Origin: Candidatus Acididesulfobacter guangdongensis
Lineage (GTDB): Bacteria > SZUA-79 > Acidulodesulfobacterales > Acidulodesulfobacteraceae
DNA length: 64,000 nucleotides
Direction of reading: 5' to 3'
Assembly (NCBI GenBank): GCA_004195045.1
Contig: SGBC01000001.1
Location: 62,001 to 126,000 of the forward strand
The position numbers and the translations under genes were made by a program. Below are positions 16,189 to 24,128 of the stretch, piece after piece. The first letter of the stretch is position 1; each line of letters begins with the position of its first letter. A model generated the notes under the pieces. It had not been told where the DNA came from and searched no databases. It saw nothing but the letters and a program-made list of their open reading frames with translations.

Positions 16189-17499
16189 TCATTTAATTAT
16201 TCTGTTGACGACGCTATAAACTTCCTTTAAAGAAACATTATTGTTTAGCGCTATTTTTTTTAAGTTTTCATATTCGGGTTTTTTATTCAGGATTTTATTT
16301 CCTAATTTAGATACTTTAACTTTGATTGTACCGTATGGAGTATTTATCTCTTCCGTAAATCTGTCTATATAAATTTTATCTTTTATTGCTATTCTGACCC
16401 CTATAGTAGTGGTTTCTTCCATTATAACCGCCGATAATTTCTTTATTGACGGAACATCGCATAAAACATTCAAAACAATGCCGGGTCTATTTTTTTTCAT
16501 TATTACCGGTGTGAGAAAAACATCTGCTGCCCCGTTTTTAAATAATTTTTCGATAACAAAATCATATATCTCCGGATTCATATCGTCAATATTACACTGC
16601 ATTTCAACGATTTCTCCGTAATTCATCATATCCGTCATATCTGGAATTTGCGGATTATTGCCGCCGTCAATATTATTTTTGTAATGGCTAATGTCGTCGC
16701 AGCTGCCGCTGTTATCAGAATTGCAGCTTAAAGAAGAATGTTTATTTAATTTTCCGTAAAAAATTCTCAAAATATTCGCCAATCTGTTCAGGTCTTTCGA
16801 CCCGCAGCCGTAACCTTCTGAAATAATTTCCATTGATGGTATTTTTTCGCTGAATCCGCCTGCGTAATATTTAATAAGCGCAGCTCCGGTGGGCGTGGTT
16901 AACTCGGTATCATCGCCAAAACCGTAAACCGGCACTTCTTTTAATATATAGGAAACTGCCGGAGGAGGCACCGATAAAGTACCGTGCGAGATATCTATAA
17001 TGCCTGAACCTAAGTTTATTTTAGAACAGATTATATTATAATTTCCGTTATTTTTTAAATTAAGTTCGTTAATAATAAAAGCGGACAATGATACGTCTAT
17101 AAGGGTATCGATGCTTGCAACTTCATGAAGATGCAGTTCTTTTAAAGATTTTCCGTGGATATATCCTTCTGCCTCAAATAAAATATTATAAATCAGGCGT
17201 ATGTCGTTTTTAATATCATTTTTAAAATTAATTAAATTAATCTGCTTATCTACTTCGTTTACTGTTTTGAATTTTACGGATATTTTATCTTGATTTATTC
17301 TAAGGAATAACCCGCGAAAACCTTTTTTCTGCGTTTCTTCAAAAAAAATGTCTTTTGAAGAAAAATTCTGTATATTCAAATTATCTACTGCATCGCATAA
17401 TTGCTTTTCTTTGATTAAATCTAAATTATATAAAGCGCTCAGGAATTTATCGCCTGATACGCCGCTAAAACAGTCAATATAGATAGTGTTTTGATTCAT
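16189..17499 (-). CDS. larC: Nickel-pincer cofactor nickel insertase LarC
   Basis: About 436 residues from Met at 17497-17499 (MNQNTIYIDCFSGVSGDKFLSAL); the frame extends 19 codons upstream, but those residues are hydrophobic and lie outside the family homology. LarC inserts nickel in a CTP-dependent reaction to finish the cofactor used by lactate racemase and relatives. Seen: HLHEVASIDTLID, GTLSVPPPAVSYIL, TTPTGAALI, and the C-terminal part with QCNIDDMNPEIYDFV. Both halves are in one frame, unlike the frameshifted LarC of Lactiplantibacillus. A Ser/Asn/Asp-rich insert sits at about 251-290 between the halves. Last gene of the tmk-to-larC run. Confidence 0.93.
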   Translation of the reverse strand: MNQNTIYIDCFSGVSGDKFLSALYNLDLIKEKQLCDAVDNLNIQNFSSKDIFFEETQKKGFRGLFLRINQDKISVKFKTVNEVDKQINLINFKNDIKNDIRLIYNILFEAEGYIHGKSLKELHLHEVASIDTLIDVSLSAFIINELNLKNNGNYNIICSKINLGSGIIDISHGTLSVPPPAVSYILKEVPVYGFGDDTELTTPTGAALIKYYAGGFSEKIPSMEIISEGYGCGSKDLNRLANILRIFYGKLNKHSSLSCNSDNSGSCDDISHYKNNIDGGNNPQIPDMTDMMNYGEIVEMQCNIDDMNPEIYDFVIEKLFKNGAADVFLTPVIMKKNRPGIVLNVLCDVPSIKKLSAVIMEETTTIGVRIAIKDKIYIDRFTEEINTPYGTIKVKVSKLGNKILNKKPEYENLKKIALNNNVSLKEVYSVVNRIIK

Positions 17500-17651
17500 G
17501 GCGCAACCGATATATAATATAACCAATGAGACAATATTTAAAATTAAAATAAACAAACAAAATAAAATTAAATCAAATCAATACAATACATAGGATTAAA
17601 TTCAATCAGCACAAATTGTTAAACAGAGTTGGATTTTTATCCGACAATTTT

Positions 17652-19097
17652 TTATCCGACATCATTATATTTACGAAATTTAAATTTTACCTTTTTTTCT
17701 TCCGCTATTTTTTTTACTTTTTCTATGTTTAAATCTTTTAACCCTACTGCCGAAACCGCAACGTCATTTATATATTTTTTCGATTCGTCTATAAATTCTA
17801 AAATTGAGTTAAAAGGGTTAATGCCTGAGACGCTATTTTTCTTTATCTGTGGTCTGCAAATTGCATTGTAATAATCGCTGTCGGCGGCATTAAGACTTAT
17901 GCTTATACCGTCTATATATTCTCCCAGCTCTTTCGCCACATTCCTGCCATAAACGGCATTAGCAAGCCCGTCGGTATCAAGTCTTACATAAATTCCTTTA
18001 TTTTTAAGATGTGCCGCGACTTTTTTAAGAACGTTCAAACGCAAAGTCGGTTCTCCTAGTCCGCAAAATACAACCTCTTTAAAATTGTAATAATGAAAAA
18101 TAGATGCTAAAACCTCGGCTTCAGATGGTTCATGTTTTAATTCAAGATTGTATCCTTTTACATTAAAATTTATCGCGCCGTTCTGATATTTAGGGCAAAA
18201 AATACATTGATTTGTGCAGTTATTCGTAAGATTAACGTAAATTGAATCTCTGATTTTATAGGCTACGGCAGGATAAAAATTATCTACGCCGCTAAGAGAA
18301 AACAGATTCACGGTATTCTGCACTGTTAATTCTTTAAATTTTTCCAACTCAATATTTTTTTCGTTTGCTATTGTTTCAGCTATAAATCTTACATAAGACG
18401 GTTCGTTTCTTTTTCCCCGGTATTTTTGCGGAGCAAGAAAAGGGCTGTCTGTTTCTATTAATATTTTTTCATCGGGGAGGACTTTTGCAATTTCTCTTAA
18501 GTGCTGATTTTTTCTATACGTTATCTTGCCGGCTATTGAAATAAAATATCCCAGGTCTAAAAATTTATCGGCTTCTTCAATATTTTTACCTGAAAAACAG
18601 TGAATAACCCCTCCGTAAAATAAATAATCGGAATTATGATAGTTTTTTAAAATTTCATATGCTTCGTCGTAAGCATCCCTTATATGAACGGCGATGGGAA
18701 GTTTATTGGCTAACGCAAGCTCAATCTGAAATCTGAACAGCTCTTCCTGCTTTTTTTTATCTATCGTATTTTTACCCGTCTTTTCGACCTCTTCAAAATA
18801 GTCAAGCCCTATCTCTCCAATAGCAACAACCTTTTCTTTTAAATTTGAAAAATTTATTTCAAACAAATTTTTTATATCGCTAAGACTCTTATAATTACTT
18901 TTTGGATGAACTCCGAGTGTTGTAAATATATTGCCGTGCTCATTGACAATCTGAATCGTTTTTTCCAATCTTTCGTTTTCTGCTAAAGAACCTATGGATA
19001 TAGCATGAGTTATACCGAATTTTTCCATGTTTTCAAATACGGCAGAACGGTCTGCATCAAAATCTTTCATTTCTAAATGGCAATGCGAATCTATCAT
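17652..19097 (-). CDS. TatD-family hydrolase fused to a radical SAM domain
   Basis: 481 residues with two domains. Residues 1-265 are a TatD metal-dependent deoxyribonuclease-type hydrolase: HCH at 5-7, GEIGLDY with Glu97, VHIRDA with His138, VIHCFSG with His166 and ETDSPFLAP with Asp217. Residues 285-481 are a radical SAM domain with CTNQCIFC (Cys294, Cys298, Cys301) and CGLGEPTLRL at about 345-354. The second part matches the TatD-associated radical SAM proteins that are usually a separate gene. It follows metG by 124 bases, a typical TatD position. The substrate of the radical SAM half is unknown. Confidence 0.9.
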   Translation of the reverse strand: MIDSHCHLEMKDFDADRSAVFENMEKFGITHAISIGSLAENERLEKTIQIVNEHGNIFTTLGVHPKSNYKSLSDIKNLFEINFSNLKEKVVAIGEIGLDYFEEVEKTGKNTIDKKKQEELFRFQIELALANKLPIAVHIRDAYDEAYEILKNYHNSDYLFYGGVIHCFSGKNIEEADKFLDLGYFISIAGKITYRKNQHLREIAKVLPDEKILIETDSPFLAPQKYRGKRNEPSYVRFIAETIANEKNIELEKFKELTVQNTVNLFSLSGVDNFYPAVAYKIRDSIYVNLTNNCTNQCIFCPKYQNGAINFNVKGYNLELKHEPSEAEVLASIFHYYNFKEVVFCGLGEPTLRLNVLKKVAAHLKNKGIYVRLDTDGLANAVYGRNVAKELGEYIDGISISLNAADSDYYNAICRPQIKKNSVSGINPFNSILEFIDESKKYINDVAVSAVGLKDLNIEKVKKIAEEKKVKFKFRKYNDVG

Positions 19098-19221: not shown

Positions 19222-20859
19222 TTATCCCTGATTTTTACCGCCGGATATATTTAATCTAGGGAAAAGCATAACGCTTTCATCAGATATTTTAAAACCTTCT
19301 TTAAATACATCCTCCGGTACGGGAAATTGACCGCCGTCTGAAAAAAACTTGACGTTCAGCATGAAATTTATTTTATCCGATGTACCTGGCATAAACGGAT
19401 AAATAAAATAAGAGATATAATATACCGAAATAATAGAACTTCTCAATACCGAATCTAAAAATTTGTTTTCAGTTTCATTATTGACGTCTATTTTCCATGG
19501 AGCGCTGTCATTTATATATTTATTAACTTTATTTATAAATAAAAAAGCATCTTCTAAAATTTTGGAAAATTCAAAATTTTCGTATCTTTTATCTAAAGAA
19601 TCTCGCAAAGTTAAGGCATAATCAATTAAGTCCGTATTAATTTCCGCAGATATCGGTACAACACCGTTTCTATATTTCTTAATCATCGCTAAAAGCCTTG
19701 AAACTAAGTTGCCTAAATCATTAGCAAGCTCTGAATTATACCTTGTTGTAAAATTTTTCAACGTAAAATCCCCGTCAAGACCGAAAGTAACCTCCCTCAT
19801 AAGATAATAGCGCAGCGGATCTTCTCCGTAAGTATTTACGACTTCAACCGGATTAACAACATTGCCTAATGATTTCGACATCTTTTTGCCGTCCATGAGC
19901 CACCATCCGTGAGCGAAAACCGTCTTCGGAAGAGGAATATCTAAGGCTAACAGCATAATAGGCCAATATACCGTATGAAATTTAAGTATATCCTTCCCTA
20001 TAATATGATGAAGACTGCCGAAATAATTAATGAACTTATTTTCATTTTCGCCGTTATAATTGCAATTCGTCTTCTTGCCATCGGCATTAGCTAAATCATT
20101 TTCTTCTTTATATTTATCATCTTTTCGATAATTTAAATAGCCTGCTCCGGTCAAATAATTAATTAGAGCGTCAAACCAAACATAAATAACATGTTCGTTA
20201 TTTTCGCTTACCGGAATTCCCCATTTAAAAGACGTCCTTGATACGCTTAAATCGTTTAATCCTTCTTTGATAAAACTTACTACTTCGTTTTTCCTGAAAG
20301 ACGGTTTAATAAAATCAGGATTCTCATCAATATATTTTAATAGTTTTTCTTCATATTTTTTCAATCTTAAAAAATAACTTTTTTCTTTTATTCTTTCAAC
20401 AGGTCTCCCGCACTCCGGACAATTTCCGTTTAAAAGAGATTTTTCGGTTAAAAAAGTTTCGCATGGGGTGCAGTACCAGCCTTCATAATCTGAAAGGTAT
20501 ATATCCCCTTTAGAAATAAGTTCCGAAAAAACTCTTTGCACTGTTTTAACGTGGTCTTCGTCGGTAGTTCTGATAAATCTGTCGTAAGAAATATCTAAAG
20601 AATTAAAAAGTTCTTTAAATTTTATATGGACATTATCCGCAAGTTCTTTGGGGGATATGCCTCTGGATAGAGCTTCCTTTTCTATTTTTAATCCATGCTC
20701 GTCCGTACCGGTCAGAAATAATACATTAAATCCGGAAAGTCTCTTAAATCTTGCAAGTATATCGGCAGATACCGTAGAATAGGCATGCCCTATGTGCGGT
20801 ATATCATTAACATAATATATAGGCGTGGTTATATAAAAAAAATTGCCTTTATTTTTCAT
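19222..20859 (-). CDS. metG: Methionyl-tRNA synthetase
   Basis: 545 residues. Class I signatures PHIGHAYST (HIGH at 22-25) and KKMSKSLGN (about 325-333). A zinc knuckle is formed by CTPCETFL and CPECGRP. The anticodon-binding domain follows; the C-terminal tRNA-binding appendage of longer MetRS forms is absent. A low-complexity Lys/Asn/Glu insert (about 243-276) lies just before the conserved GSLHHIIGKDILKFH. Charges tRNA-Met in the cytoplasm. Between ricT and tatD, a widely conserved order. Confidence 0.97.
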   Translation of the reverse strand: MKNKGNFFYITTPIYYVNDIPHIGHAYSTVSADILARFKRLSGFNVLFLTGTDEHGLKIEKEALSRGISPKELADNVHIKFKELFNSLDISYDRFIRTTDEDHVKTVQRVFSELISKGDIYLSDYEGWYCTPCETFLTEKSLLNGNCPECGRPVERIKEKSYFLRLKKYEEKLLKYIDENPDFIKPSFRKNEVVSFIKEGLNDLSVSRTSFKWGIPVSENNEHVIYVWFDALINYLTGAGYLNYRKDDKYKEENDLANADGKKTNCNYNGENENKFINYFGSLHHIIGKDILKFHTVYWPIMLLALDIPLPKTVFAHGWWLMDGKKMSKSLGNVVNPVEVVNTYGEDPLRYYLMREVTFGLDGDFTLKNFTTRYNSELANDLGNLVSRLLAMIKKYRNGVVPISAEINTDLIDYALTLRDSLDKRYENFEFSKILEDAFLFINKVNKYINDSAPWKIDVNNETENKFLDSVLRSSIISVYYISYFIYPFMPGTSDKINFMLNVKFFSDGGQFPVPEDVFKEGFKISDESVMLFPRLNISGGKNQG

Positions 20860-20985: not shown

Positions 20986-21684
20986 CTAAGCCGGAATATC
21001 TTCTTTAATCTCTGCATTGCCGCCGCATCCGCAGCCGTCATCATCAGAGGAACAAAACATAAAACAGCATAAAAGTCTGCCGCAAGAACCTATCATTCTC
21101 CCTGAATTCTGTTTTTGAAACTTGGCGCTTGCAGCCTTAAGAGTTATAGGTGCAAGTTCTTTTATGACTGAATTGCAGCAATACATTCTGCCGCACAAAC
21201 CTATTCCGCCCAGAAGTTTACACTCATCGCGTATATTTATCTGGCGCATCTCTATTCTTAAATGGAATTTTGCCGCCATAATCTTGACTAGCTCTCTAAA
21301 ATCAACTCTTTCTTCGGCGCTGTAATAAAAAATCATCTTATTTTCTGACGGAAGATATTTAACCTTAAGAAGTTTCATCGACAAGCCTAATTCTTTAACT
21401 CGTTGATTGCAAAAAACAAATCCTTCATCTTCTTTGGGATGATACTGAAACGCACTTACATCTTCATTGCCGTTGACTTTTCTTAATACCAGAGACATCT
21501 GCTCTGCGCTGCTCGGCAAGTCCTGCTTATTATCTTTAATTTCAGGCGTCTCTGATACAATACCGAGAAAAATTTTACCTTTCTTTTTAACCAAAACCCT
21601 GTCCCCGATTGCGATATTTAAAGCGCATGCATTGAATTCTTCGGATTCAGCGCCTTCATAAAGTTTTATTTTTACTGTTCTCAT
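20986..21684 (-). CDS. ricT: PSP1/RicT-family protein
   Basis: 232 residues. The PSP1 C-terminal domain contains LLGGIGLCGRMYCC and MIGSCGRLLCC, the cysteine-rich pair of this family. In Bacillus, RicT (YaaT) is part of the RicAFT complex, which binds iron-sulfur clusters and affects RNA maturation. The C-terminus has further cysteines (MFCSSDDDGCGCGG). Located between holB and metG, the typical place for yaaT-type genes. RicA and RicF partners are not in the window, so the complex may differ here. Confidence 0.88.
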   Translation of the reverse strand: MRTVKIKLYEGAESEEFNACALNIAIGDRVLVKKKGKIFLGIVSETPEIKDNKQDLPSSAEQMSLVLRKVNGNEDVSAFQYHPKEDEGFVFCNQRVKELGLSMKLLKVKYLPSENKMIFYYSAEERVDFRELVKIMAAKFHLRIEMRQINIRDECKLLGGIGLCGRMYCCNSVIKELAPITLKAASAKFQKQNSGRMIGSCGRLLCCFMFCSSDDDGCGCGGNAEIKEDIPA

Positions 21685-21840: not shown

Positions 21841-23130
21841 TCATATTGCCGAAAAGTACCTATCTAAAGAAATATGTTTATTTAGATTATAATTGAGACC
21901 ATTAATATGGCTTAAGGTAATTTCTATCATTTCAGAAATTTTTTCTTCATCAAAATTATCAAGCATAGTTATTTTTTTTATTTCTTCGTAAATATCTACA
22001 TTATATATTAATTTTATATTTTTTGTAACTAAATAAACTAAAATATCTCTTAATATGACAAGTATAATTTCAAAAATATAGCTCTCGTCTATATCTATAT
22101 TATCATTATCTGTATTTTTTGCCATGATACCGATTTTCTTACCTGACTTATTGCTTTTGCTTCCGTCTTCTTTATAATTTTTTATAATATTATTAAACTT
22201 ATCGGACATATTATAATTATAAAAAGGTAATTTTTTGTTAAATGATTCGCTGATAAAAATGTCAAAAATTTCATTTCTGAGTTTTATGTAATTGCCGGAC
22301 ATTAAATTGGCTAAATTGGATATGCTTCCCCTTGCGAGCCTCACATACGCTGCCAGTATTTCGTCGTCGTTATTAAACCCCTTAATTTCTTTATCGGCTC
22401 TATTTTCTCTATTGCCGTTATTATTATCATTATTATTGTTGCTGCTGCCATTGCTATTTTGATTACCGTTGCCGTTATAGTAATTTTTAGCATAGTTGAA
22501 TAATATTTCTTCATTTACGGGTTTAAAATTTACAATCATACATCTTGATATTATAGTTGGAAGAATATTATTTAAAGCTGCCGCTATTAAAATAAAAACA
22601 GTTTTTTCCGGAGGCTCTTCTAAAATTTTTAAGATTGAGTTCATTGCGCCTGCATTCATTTTAGAAATATCGTCTATAATGACAAATCTATGCATATTGT
22701 TAGCAGGCAAAAGCGAAAGAGACCTTGCTAATCCATTAATCTTGTCTATATTTATCAGTCCTTTTTCATGCTCTATGTAAATTATATTGGAATTTGTTTT
22801 ATTAAGTATTCCGGCGCAGGATGAACATTTTCCGCACGGTTCAATCAATGCTGAAGAGGGATTATTTAAATTACTGCTGCGGTCGCCATTACTGTCTTCG
22901 ATGCCGATCAGCTTCCTGCTATTGCCGCTATTAAAATTTAAATCTAAATTAAAATCTGAGCAAAGCACGGATGAGGCGAATGAAAAAGCGGTAAATTTTT
23001 TTCCTATCGATTCCTGACCGTAAAATATCAGACCGGATGGGATTCTGTCCTGTAAAATCAGACTATTCAGAAAAACCAGTTCACTTTCGTGTCCAAGCAC
23101 CTTTGAAAATCCATACGGAAAATTATTCAT
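21841..23130 (-). CDS. holB: DNA polymerase III delta-prime subunit
   Basis: 429 residues. Clamp-loader subunit with AAA+ fold: FYGQESIGKKFTA as the degenerate P-loop, a zinc module with CGKCSSC near residue 99, RFVIIDDISKMNAGAMNSILKILEEPP, and sensor 1 with SRC (TIISRCMIVNF). An Asn/Gly-rich insert occupies about 217-247 (NSNGSSNNNNDNNNGN). The C-terminal lid domain is diverged and Lys/Asn-rich. It stands between tmk and ricT as in many bacteria. The core motifs make the call secure; DnaX is excluded because the true Walker A lysine-threonine pair is missing. Confidence 0.9.
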   Translation of the reverse strand: MNNFPYGFSKVLGHESELVFLNSLILQDRIPSGLIFYGQESIGKKFTAFSFASSVLCSDFNLDLNFNSGNSRKLIGIEDSNGDRSSNLNNPSSALIEPCGKCSSCAGILNKTNSNIIYIEHEKGLINIDKINGLARSLSLLPANNMHRFVIIDDISKMNAGAMNSILKILEEPPEKTVFILIAAALNNILPTIISRCMIVNFKPVNEEILFNYAKNYYNGNGNQNSNGSSNNNNDNNNGNRENRADKEIKGFNNDDEILAAYVRLARGSISNLANLMSGNYIKLRNEIFDIFISESFNKKLPFYNYNMSDKFNNIIKNYKEDGSKSNKSGKKIGIMAKNTDNDNIDIDESYIFEIILVILRDILVYLVTKNIKLIYNVDIYEEIKKITMLDNFDEEKISEMIEITLSHINGLNYNLNKHISLDRYFSAI

Positions 23131-23315: not shown

Positions 23316-24128
23316 TCACGGCAATAAAGAATCCGTATCCGATAAAATTTCCGATACTATTTCATCGGTAGTTTTGGAAGCGTTTATCAATGTTATTCTA
23401 TTCCGATATATTTCATAAAGATATAAATAGTTTTCTCTGATTTTTGAAAAAACATCGACAGATTGAACATCATACAGGCTCTTGATATCTTTTTTAGATA
23501 TTCTTTTACCGGCTATTTCGGGGTCTATATCAAGCAGATAAGTTCTATCTATTTCAATATCATTTATATCAAGAATAAAACTGTTTACTTTAAGAATAAA
23601 TTCTTTAGCTTTGTTTATTTTAGCTTTATCTTCTATTTCATCAAAACTTTGATAGGCAAATGTAGAATCTGTAAATCTATCGCATATAACAATGTCATAA
23701 TCTTTAATTTTATTTTTAATACTGCTCAAATGAGCTGCTCTGTCGGATGAAAACAAAAACAGACAAATTAATTTATAAGAAATTTCGTCTAAATTATTAA
23801 TATATTCATGCAGCAGTTTGTCTTTTGTACCATTATCTTTTGTATCATTATCTTTTGTATCATTATCTTTTGTATCATTATCTTTGCTTATATTATTGTT
23901 TTTGTAATTGCTGAAATTGTCGTCTTTATAATTATTTTTTTCACTGTCTCCTAAAATATATTTCTTAATAAAAGCACCCAGAGGTTCGTCTGTCGGTTCC
24001 ATAGTGTATAAAACACTATAACCTCTTTTCTCAAGTCTGCTTTTTAGTTCATGCCCCGCAGTTGTTTTTCCGCAGCCGTCTATACCTTCTAAAGTTATAA
24101 ATAGATTATTATTTTTATATGTTTTCAT
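23316..24128 (-). CDS. tmk: Thymidylate kinase with a repetitive insert
   Basis: 270 residues, longer than the usual 205-215. P-loop LEGIDGCGKTT at about 13-23, DRFTDSTFAYQSF for the substrate site, and DIDPEIAGKRIS near the lid. It phosphorylates dTMP to dTDP. The extra length is an Asn/Lys/Asp insert at about 61-108, which includes four DN(D/G)TK units encoded by a 15-bp tandem repeat. The insert lies after the conserved EPT segment, in a surface region of the fold, so the enzyme is probably active. First gene of the tmk-holB-ricT-metG-tatD-larC run. Confidence 0.93.
   Translation of the reverse strand: MKTYKNNNLFITLEGIDGCGKTTAGHELKSRLEKRGYSVLYTMEPTDEPLGAFIKKYILGDSEKNNYKDDNFSNYKNNNISKDNDTKDNDTKDNDTKDNGTKDKLLHEYINNLDEISYKLICLFLFSSDRAAHLSSIKNKIKDYDIVICDRFTDSTFAYQSFDEIEDKAKINKAKEFILKVNSFILDINDIEIDRTYLLDIDPEIAGKRISKKDIKSLYDVQSVDVFSKIRENYLYLYEIYRNRITLINASKTTDEIVSEILSDTDSLLP
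23823..23882. repeat. In-frame tandem repeat within tmk, 15 bp x 4
   Basis: Four copies of a 15-bp unit (TTTTGTATCATTATC on the plus strand; the first copy has one change). The unit length is a multiple of three, so changes in copy number would keep the tmk reading frame. Confidence 0.9.

Follow-up and report, generated by a model that had tools for sequence, protein, structure and literature searches.

TatD proteins form two groups, of which group II is defined by an HxH motif, and 3'-5' exonuclease and AP endonuclease activity is found in each (PMC10085689). The human and E. coli relatives of a canonical group II TatD are themselves 3'-5' exonucleases and AP endonucleases (PMC10085689). An association of TatD with radical SAM enzymes is already embodied in a curated NCBIfam family, TIGR04038 (tatD_link_rSAM, "TatD family nuclease-associated radical SAM protein"), for which a literature search on TatD and TIGR04038 found no experimental work and no study of a fusion. 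The nearest sister family of the radical SAM component is TIGR04100 (rSAM_pair_X), which has the same length and motifs. More distant are RlmN, TYW1, MoaA, pyruvate formate-lyase (PFL) activase, NifB and viperin, which have the radical SAM fold and weak profile similarity in common with it. Among these and related enzymes, RlmN, TYW1 and viperin act on RNA or nucleotides, MoaA and QueE rearrange small metabolites, and PFL activase and NifB do not act on nucleic acids.

The window, a stretch of 64,000 nucleotides from Candidatus Acididesulfobacter guangdongensis, contains a single gene that joins a TatD nuclease domain and a radical SAM domain. The features of the locus are as follows.

17652..19097, minus strand: tatD-rSAM fusion gene, 481 aa; open frame, intact in 28 phylum members, dN/dS far below 1 in both halves
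18297..19097, minus strand: TatD domain, residues 1-267, group II (HxH); from TIGR00010, PF01026, invariant ligands and Foldseek
18264..18296, minus strand: interdomain linker, about residues 268-278; from the spacing in 55 aligned fusions
17655..18263, minus strand: radical SAM domain, about residues 279-481, with CxxxCxxC and GxGEP and no SPASM extension; from TIGR04038, conserved residues, model and fold search
19222..20859, minus strand: metG, upstream neighbour (PF09334); same-strand order kept in relatives
20986..21684, minus strand: ricT (PSP1), upstream neighbour (PF04468); found upstream on the same strand in 30 of the 61 fused loci whose flanks are long enough

The frame comprises 481 codons from an ATG start (MIDSHCHLE), has no internal stops and ends in a stop codon at 17652-17654; its product is the sole TatD and the sole TIGR04038 protein in the genome. 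Comparison with relatives bears out the first-pass annotation of a single-chain TatD and radical SAM fusion, which is genuine and has its catalytic motifs intact in both halves. More specifically, a stop codon between the halves was looked for in relatives and none was seen, the fused frame being open in 28 intact phylum members. Loss of the cluster ligands was likewise looked for and not seen. Within the genus, dN/dS ranges over 0.04-0.12 in the TatD portion and 0.06-0.19 in the radical SAM portion, and purifying selection acts on both. A chance frame, a sequencing or assembly error and a pseudogene are all ruled out by these ratios and by the open frames in the 28 relatives.

The N-terminal half is a canonical TatD domain. 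TIGR00010 matches residues 1-267 with 245.9 bits (curated cut-off 206), and PF01026 matches at 2.3e-72. The HxH motif and the Glu/His/His/Asp ligands of group II are both present, and the six metal ligands (His5, His7, Glu95, His138, His166 and Asp217) are invariant across the 55 aligned fusions, as are the cysteines of the CxxxCxxC motif (Cys294, Cys298, Cys301) and the G346-x-G348-E349 motif of the radical SAM half. Structure matches of the TatD half include T. maritima TM0667 (1j6o, Foldseek E 1.9e-23), the S. aureus protein and E. coli YcfH, and extend to lactonases and isoaspartyl dipeptidases. Full-length match, metal ligands and fold are common to this protein and the group II systems of TIGR00010 (YcfH, TATDN3, TM0667), from which it differs by carrying a radical SAM domain at the C-terminal end of the chain. 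No convincing residues set fused TatD apart from standalone TatD in a comparison limited to 19 standalone sequences. Family membership makes it probable that this half is a nuclease.

The C-terminal half matches TIGR04038 over residues 278-478 and profile positions 2-192 of 192, with 232.1 bits against a cut-off of 129.7, and matches PF04055 at 1.6e-17. It carries both motifs of the radical SAM superfamily (CxxxCxxC and GxGE/GGE), and on the strength of its family it would be expected to bind a 4Fe-4S cluster and cleave SAM. From TIGR04038 there is no difference of substance: the TatD partner named in the family title lies in the same chain, as it does in most members sampled. TIGR04100, in contrast, scores only 165.2 bits against its curated cut-off of 262, which places the protein outside that family, and one TIGR04100 member, plasmid-borne in Monoglobus, has no TatD annotated within the listed 10 kb. 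After TIGR04038, the next-highest family scores belong to TIGR04100, a tungsten-cofactor maturase and MoaA, while TIGR00048 (RlmN) is absent from the NCBIfam matches and the protein is not an RlmN by that measure. When the radical SAM profile was compared with the sequences of solved structures, the best matches were RlmN (1.6e-6) and MoaA (8.6e-6), with TYW1 lower. A fold search placed PFL activase at the top of a list that also included RlmN, TYW1, NifB, viperin and QueE; the matches to the first five of these are at 15-20% identity, and the radical half is a compact, bare core without the extra domains of RlmN, TYW1, MoaA, PFL activase, NifB or viperin.

Between the two halves, F266 and Y280 are separated by 10-13 residues in every one of the 55 aligned fusions. 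AlphaFold2 gave the whole 481-residue chain a pLDDT of 92.8 and a pTM of 0.91, and this pTM suggests that the halves are held in one defined arrangement. Together with the 28 intact copies in 30 phylum genomes and the linker length, it establishes that the physical link of TatD and radical SAM domains is real and conserved.

The phylum sample consisted of 30 genomes from one family and six genera, with Candidatus Acididesulfobacter diazotrophicus as a named near relative. A radical SAM match was present in 29 of these, 28 as complete fused frames and one interrupted where its contig ends; the remaining genome, just 59% complete, gave no match. When GTDB species genomes were scanned with the radical SAM half as query, 80 loci were recovered, 69 of them fused with TatD preceding radical SAM and 11 separate. 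In a broad sample outside the phylum, the radical SAM family occurs in 58 of 261 genomes; 46 of the positive genomes have fused-length frames (45 confirmed by profile search), 11 have separate copies, five of these with a TatD within 1.5 kb, and one is truncated. Within one Geobacter-like order nearly all genomes have the family (56 of 58, with frames of 420-580 aa), and all but one copy there are fused, the exception being a separate copy that one genome possesses in addition to its fused copy. Judging by record titles, the fused loci span at least eleven phyla.

Fusion is therefore the majority state of the TIGR04038 family in the sampled genomes, and the statement that radical SAM proteins linked to TatD usually occur as separate neighbours was wrong. 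The suggested search for the same fusion, in the same order, in other genomes instead found it across those phyla, which rules out a lineage-specific novelty. The protein in the window is an ordinary, typical member of a known but uncharacterised family and not an exception to it. No full-length match to the fusion protein was found in phage records. One fused homologue (G216:C13:126753-127319) is reported with a single in-frame TGA, which may represent recoding, an error or a pseudogene.

For 123 radical SAM domains, a maximum-likelihood tree requires 12 changes between the fused and separate states, with separate copies scattered among fused ones. Because the tree is unrooted and many of its deep branches are weakly supported, gain and loss of the fusion are indistinguishable. 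An old fusion with repeated later splitting would fit the pattern, but so would several fusions. Fused and separate copies largely share the radical half's conserved residues, Cys345 and Cys414 among them, which suggests one ancestral function.

The gene lies in the order tmk-holB-ricT-metG-tatD in the window, as it does across much of the phylum, and tmk-holB-ricT-metG is the only widely recurring context among the window neighbours tested; no further conserved partner gene was found among them. In most loci from Geobacter and Thermodesulfovibrionales, same-strand upstream ricT was not detected. The separate radical SAM copies, read by eye, have varied neighbours with no common or clear nucleic-acid theme. 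The fusion is the only TatD in 14 sampled fusion-carrying genomes, an indication that in these genomes the housekeeping function of TatD falls to the fused protein. The genome lacks exonuclease III. Two substitutions that the fusion might have made are not supported, since a separate RlmN (C4:96508-97569, 333 bits) and an AP endonuclease IV are encoded elsewhere in the genome. Nor is the family restricted to organisms with class III ribonucleotide reductase, with which it has no association (23 of 58 family-positive versus 75 of 203 family-negative genomes).

Considering these observations together, the reading favoured here, tentatively and with rather less than even confidence, is that of a bifunctional housekeeping enzyme acting on a nucleic acid or nucleotide by radical modification and TatD phosphodiester hydrolysis. 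The 3'-5' exonuclease and AP endonuclease activity of TatD (PMC10085689) is what tips the preference in this direction. The C-terminal half would bind a 4Fe-4S cluster through Cys294, Cys298 and Cys301 and cleave SAM, the resulting 5'-deoxyadenosyl radical would modify or repair a nucleotide or base, and the N-terminal group II TatD would hydrolyse phosphodiesters, as 3'-5' exonuclease, AP endonuclease or both, on the same substrate before or after the radical step. We infer both that one substrate would be common to the halves and that it would be a nucleic acid or nucleotide. In favour of this proposal are the two catalytic centres, intact and invariant across phyla, the short and near-constant linker, the pTM value, the canonical group II TatD, the leading profile matches to RlmN and MoaA, the RlmN, TYW1 and viperin folds, and the position of the gene in the tmk-holB-ricT-metG-tatD slot. 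Against it, PFL activase and NifB are equally among the fold matches, the lower family scores are led by TIGR04100, the tungsten-cofactor maturase and MoaA, and the neighbours of separate copies are without a clear nucleic-acid theme. A more specific version, in which the radical SAM half removes or alters a lesion or modified nucleotide and the fused TatD nuclease trims the strand, as a widespread two-step nucleic-acid repair or RNA quality-control enzyme, is speculative and unlikely.

The proximity of MoaA, about as near as RlmN by sequence, and the presence of QueE in the fold list could alternatively point to a small-molecule pathway, in which the radical SAM half rearranges a pterin, vitamin or nucleotide-derived metabolite and TatD is not a nuclease but a metal-dependent hydrolase of the same metabolite. 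The diversity of hydrolases in the TatD superfamily, evident in the lactonase and isoaspartyl dipeptidase matches, would accommodate this, and two copies resembling the sister family adjoin vitamin-related genes (a CytX-like hydroxymethylpyrimidine transporter and a pyridoxamine kinase). However, that context belongs to a divergent branch nearer TIGR04100, the TatD half retains all the nuclease-group sequence features that were checked, and the fusion protein is its genome's only TatD; a metabolite pathway is thus a doubtful, though serious, alternative. The occurrence of the radical half alone, away from TatD, in several lineages indicates that the link is not obligatory, and might mean that two housekeeping enzymes were joined for expression or stability only, without a common substrate. 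Against this, the domain order and the length of the linker are shared by fusions from at least eleven named phyla, separate copies form the minority, and the model predicts a defined packing of the halves, so that mere joining appears rather improbable. PFL activase, the top fold match and similarly compact, raises the further prospect that the radical SAM half modifies or activates a protein, possibly TatD or a partner. Yet only the tmk-holB-ricT-metG housekeeping genes recur widely among the window neighbours tested, and co-occurrence with class III ribonucleotide reductase reveals no link to an anaerobic glycyl-radical enzyme, leaving this as the least credible of the readings.

By whichever route it acts, the fusion couples a radical SAM enzyme of unassigned function with a nuclease that is nearly universal, and does so in at least eleven phyla, often as the genome's only TatD. 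Its substrate, once found, would give a function to the whole curated family and clarify the role of the housekeeping TatD.

Several neighbouring and related genes have features of their own. Directly downstream of the fusion lies a LarC-type nickel insertion protein (16189-17556, minus strand), a neighbour in only six relatives' loci. Two housekeeping proteins upstream show low-complexity expansions, namely a repeated KDNDT insert in thymidylate kinase (23316-24128, minus strand) and an Asn-rich insert in HolB (21841-23130, minus strand). In Kangiella shandongensis (L105:4430-8579), the separate TIGR04038 copy overlaps a gene for a small cysteine-rich protein and adjoins apparent nrdD and nrdG, as read by eye. 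After a separate copy in a Chromatiales MAG (L094:7902-11449) come a YhcC-like radical SAM gene and, again by eye, apparent ubiU and ubiV, which function in oxygen-independent ubiquinone synthesis. The Geobacter-like genome G081 carries, alongside its fused copy, a second, separate copy with an N-terminal extension (L191:9167-9931) near apparent nitrogenase-related genes. An NrdD match in one family member (G029:C13:3925-5586) is reported with in-frame TGA and TAA codons. The divergent copies nearer TIGR04100 (L188:7798-10582 and L189) lie with their transporter and kinase genes in an apparent operon, which provides a lead for that sister family.
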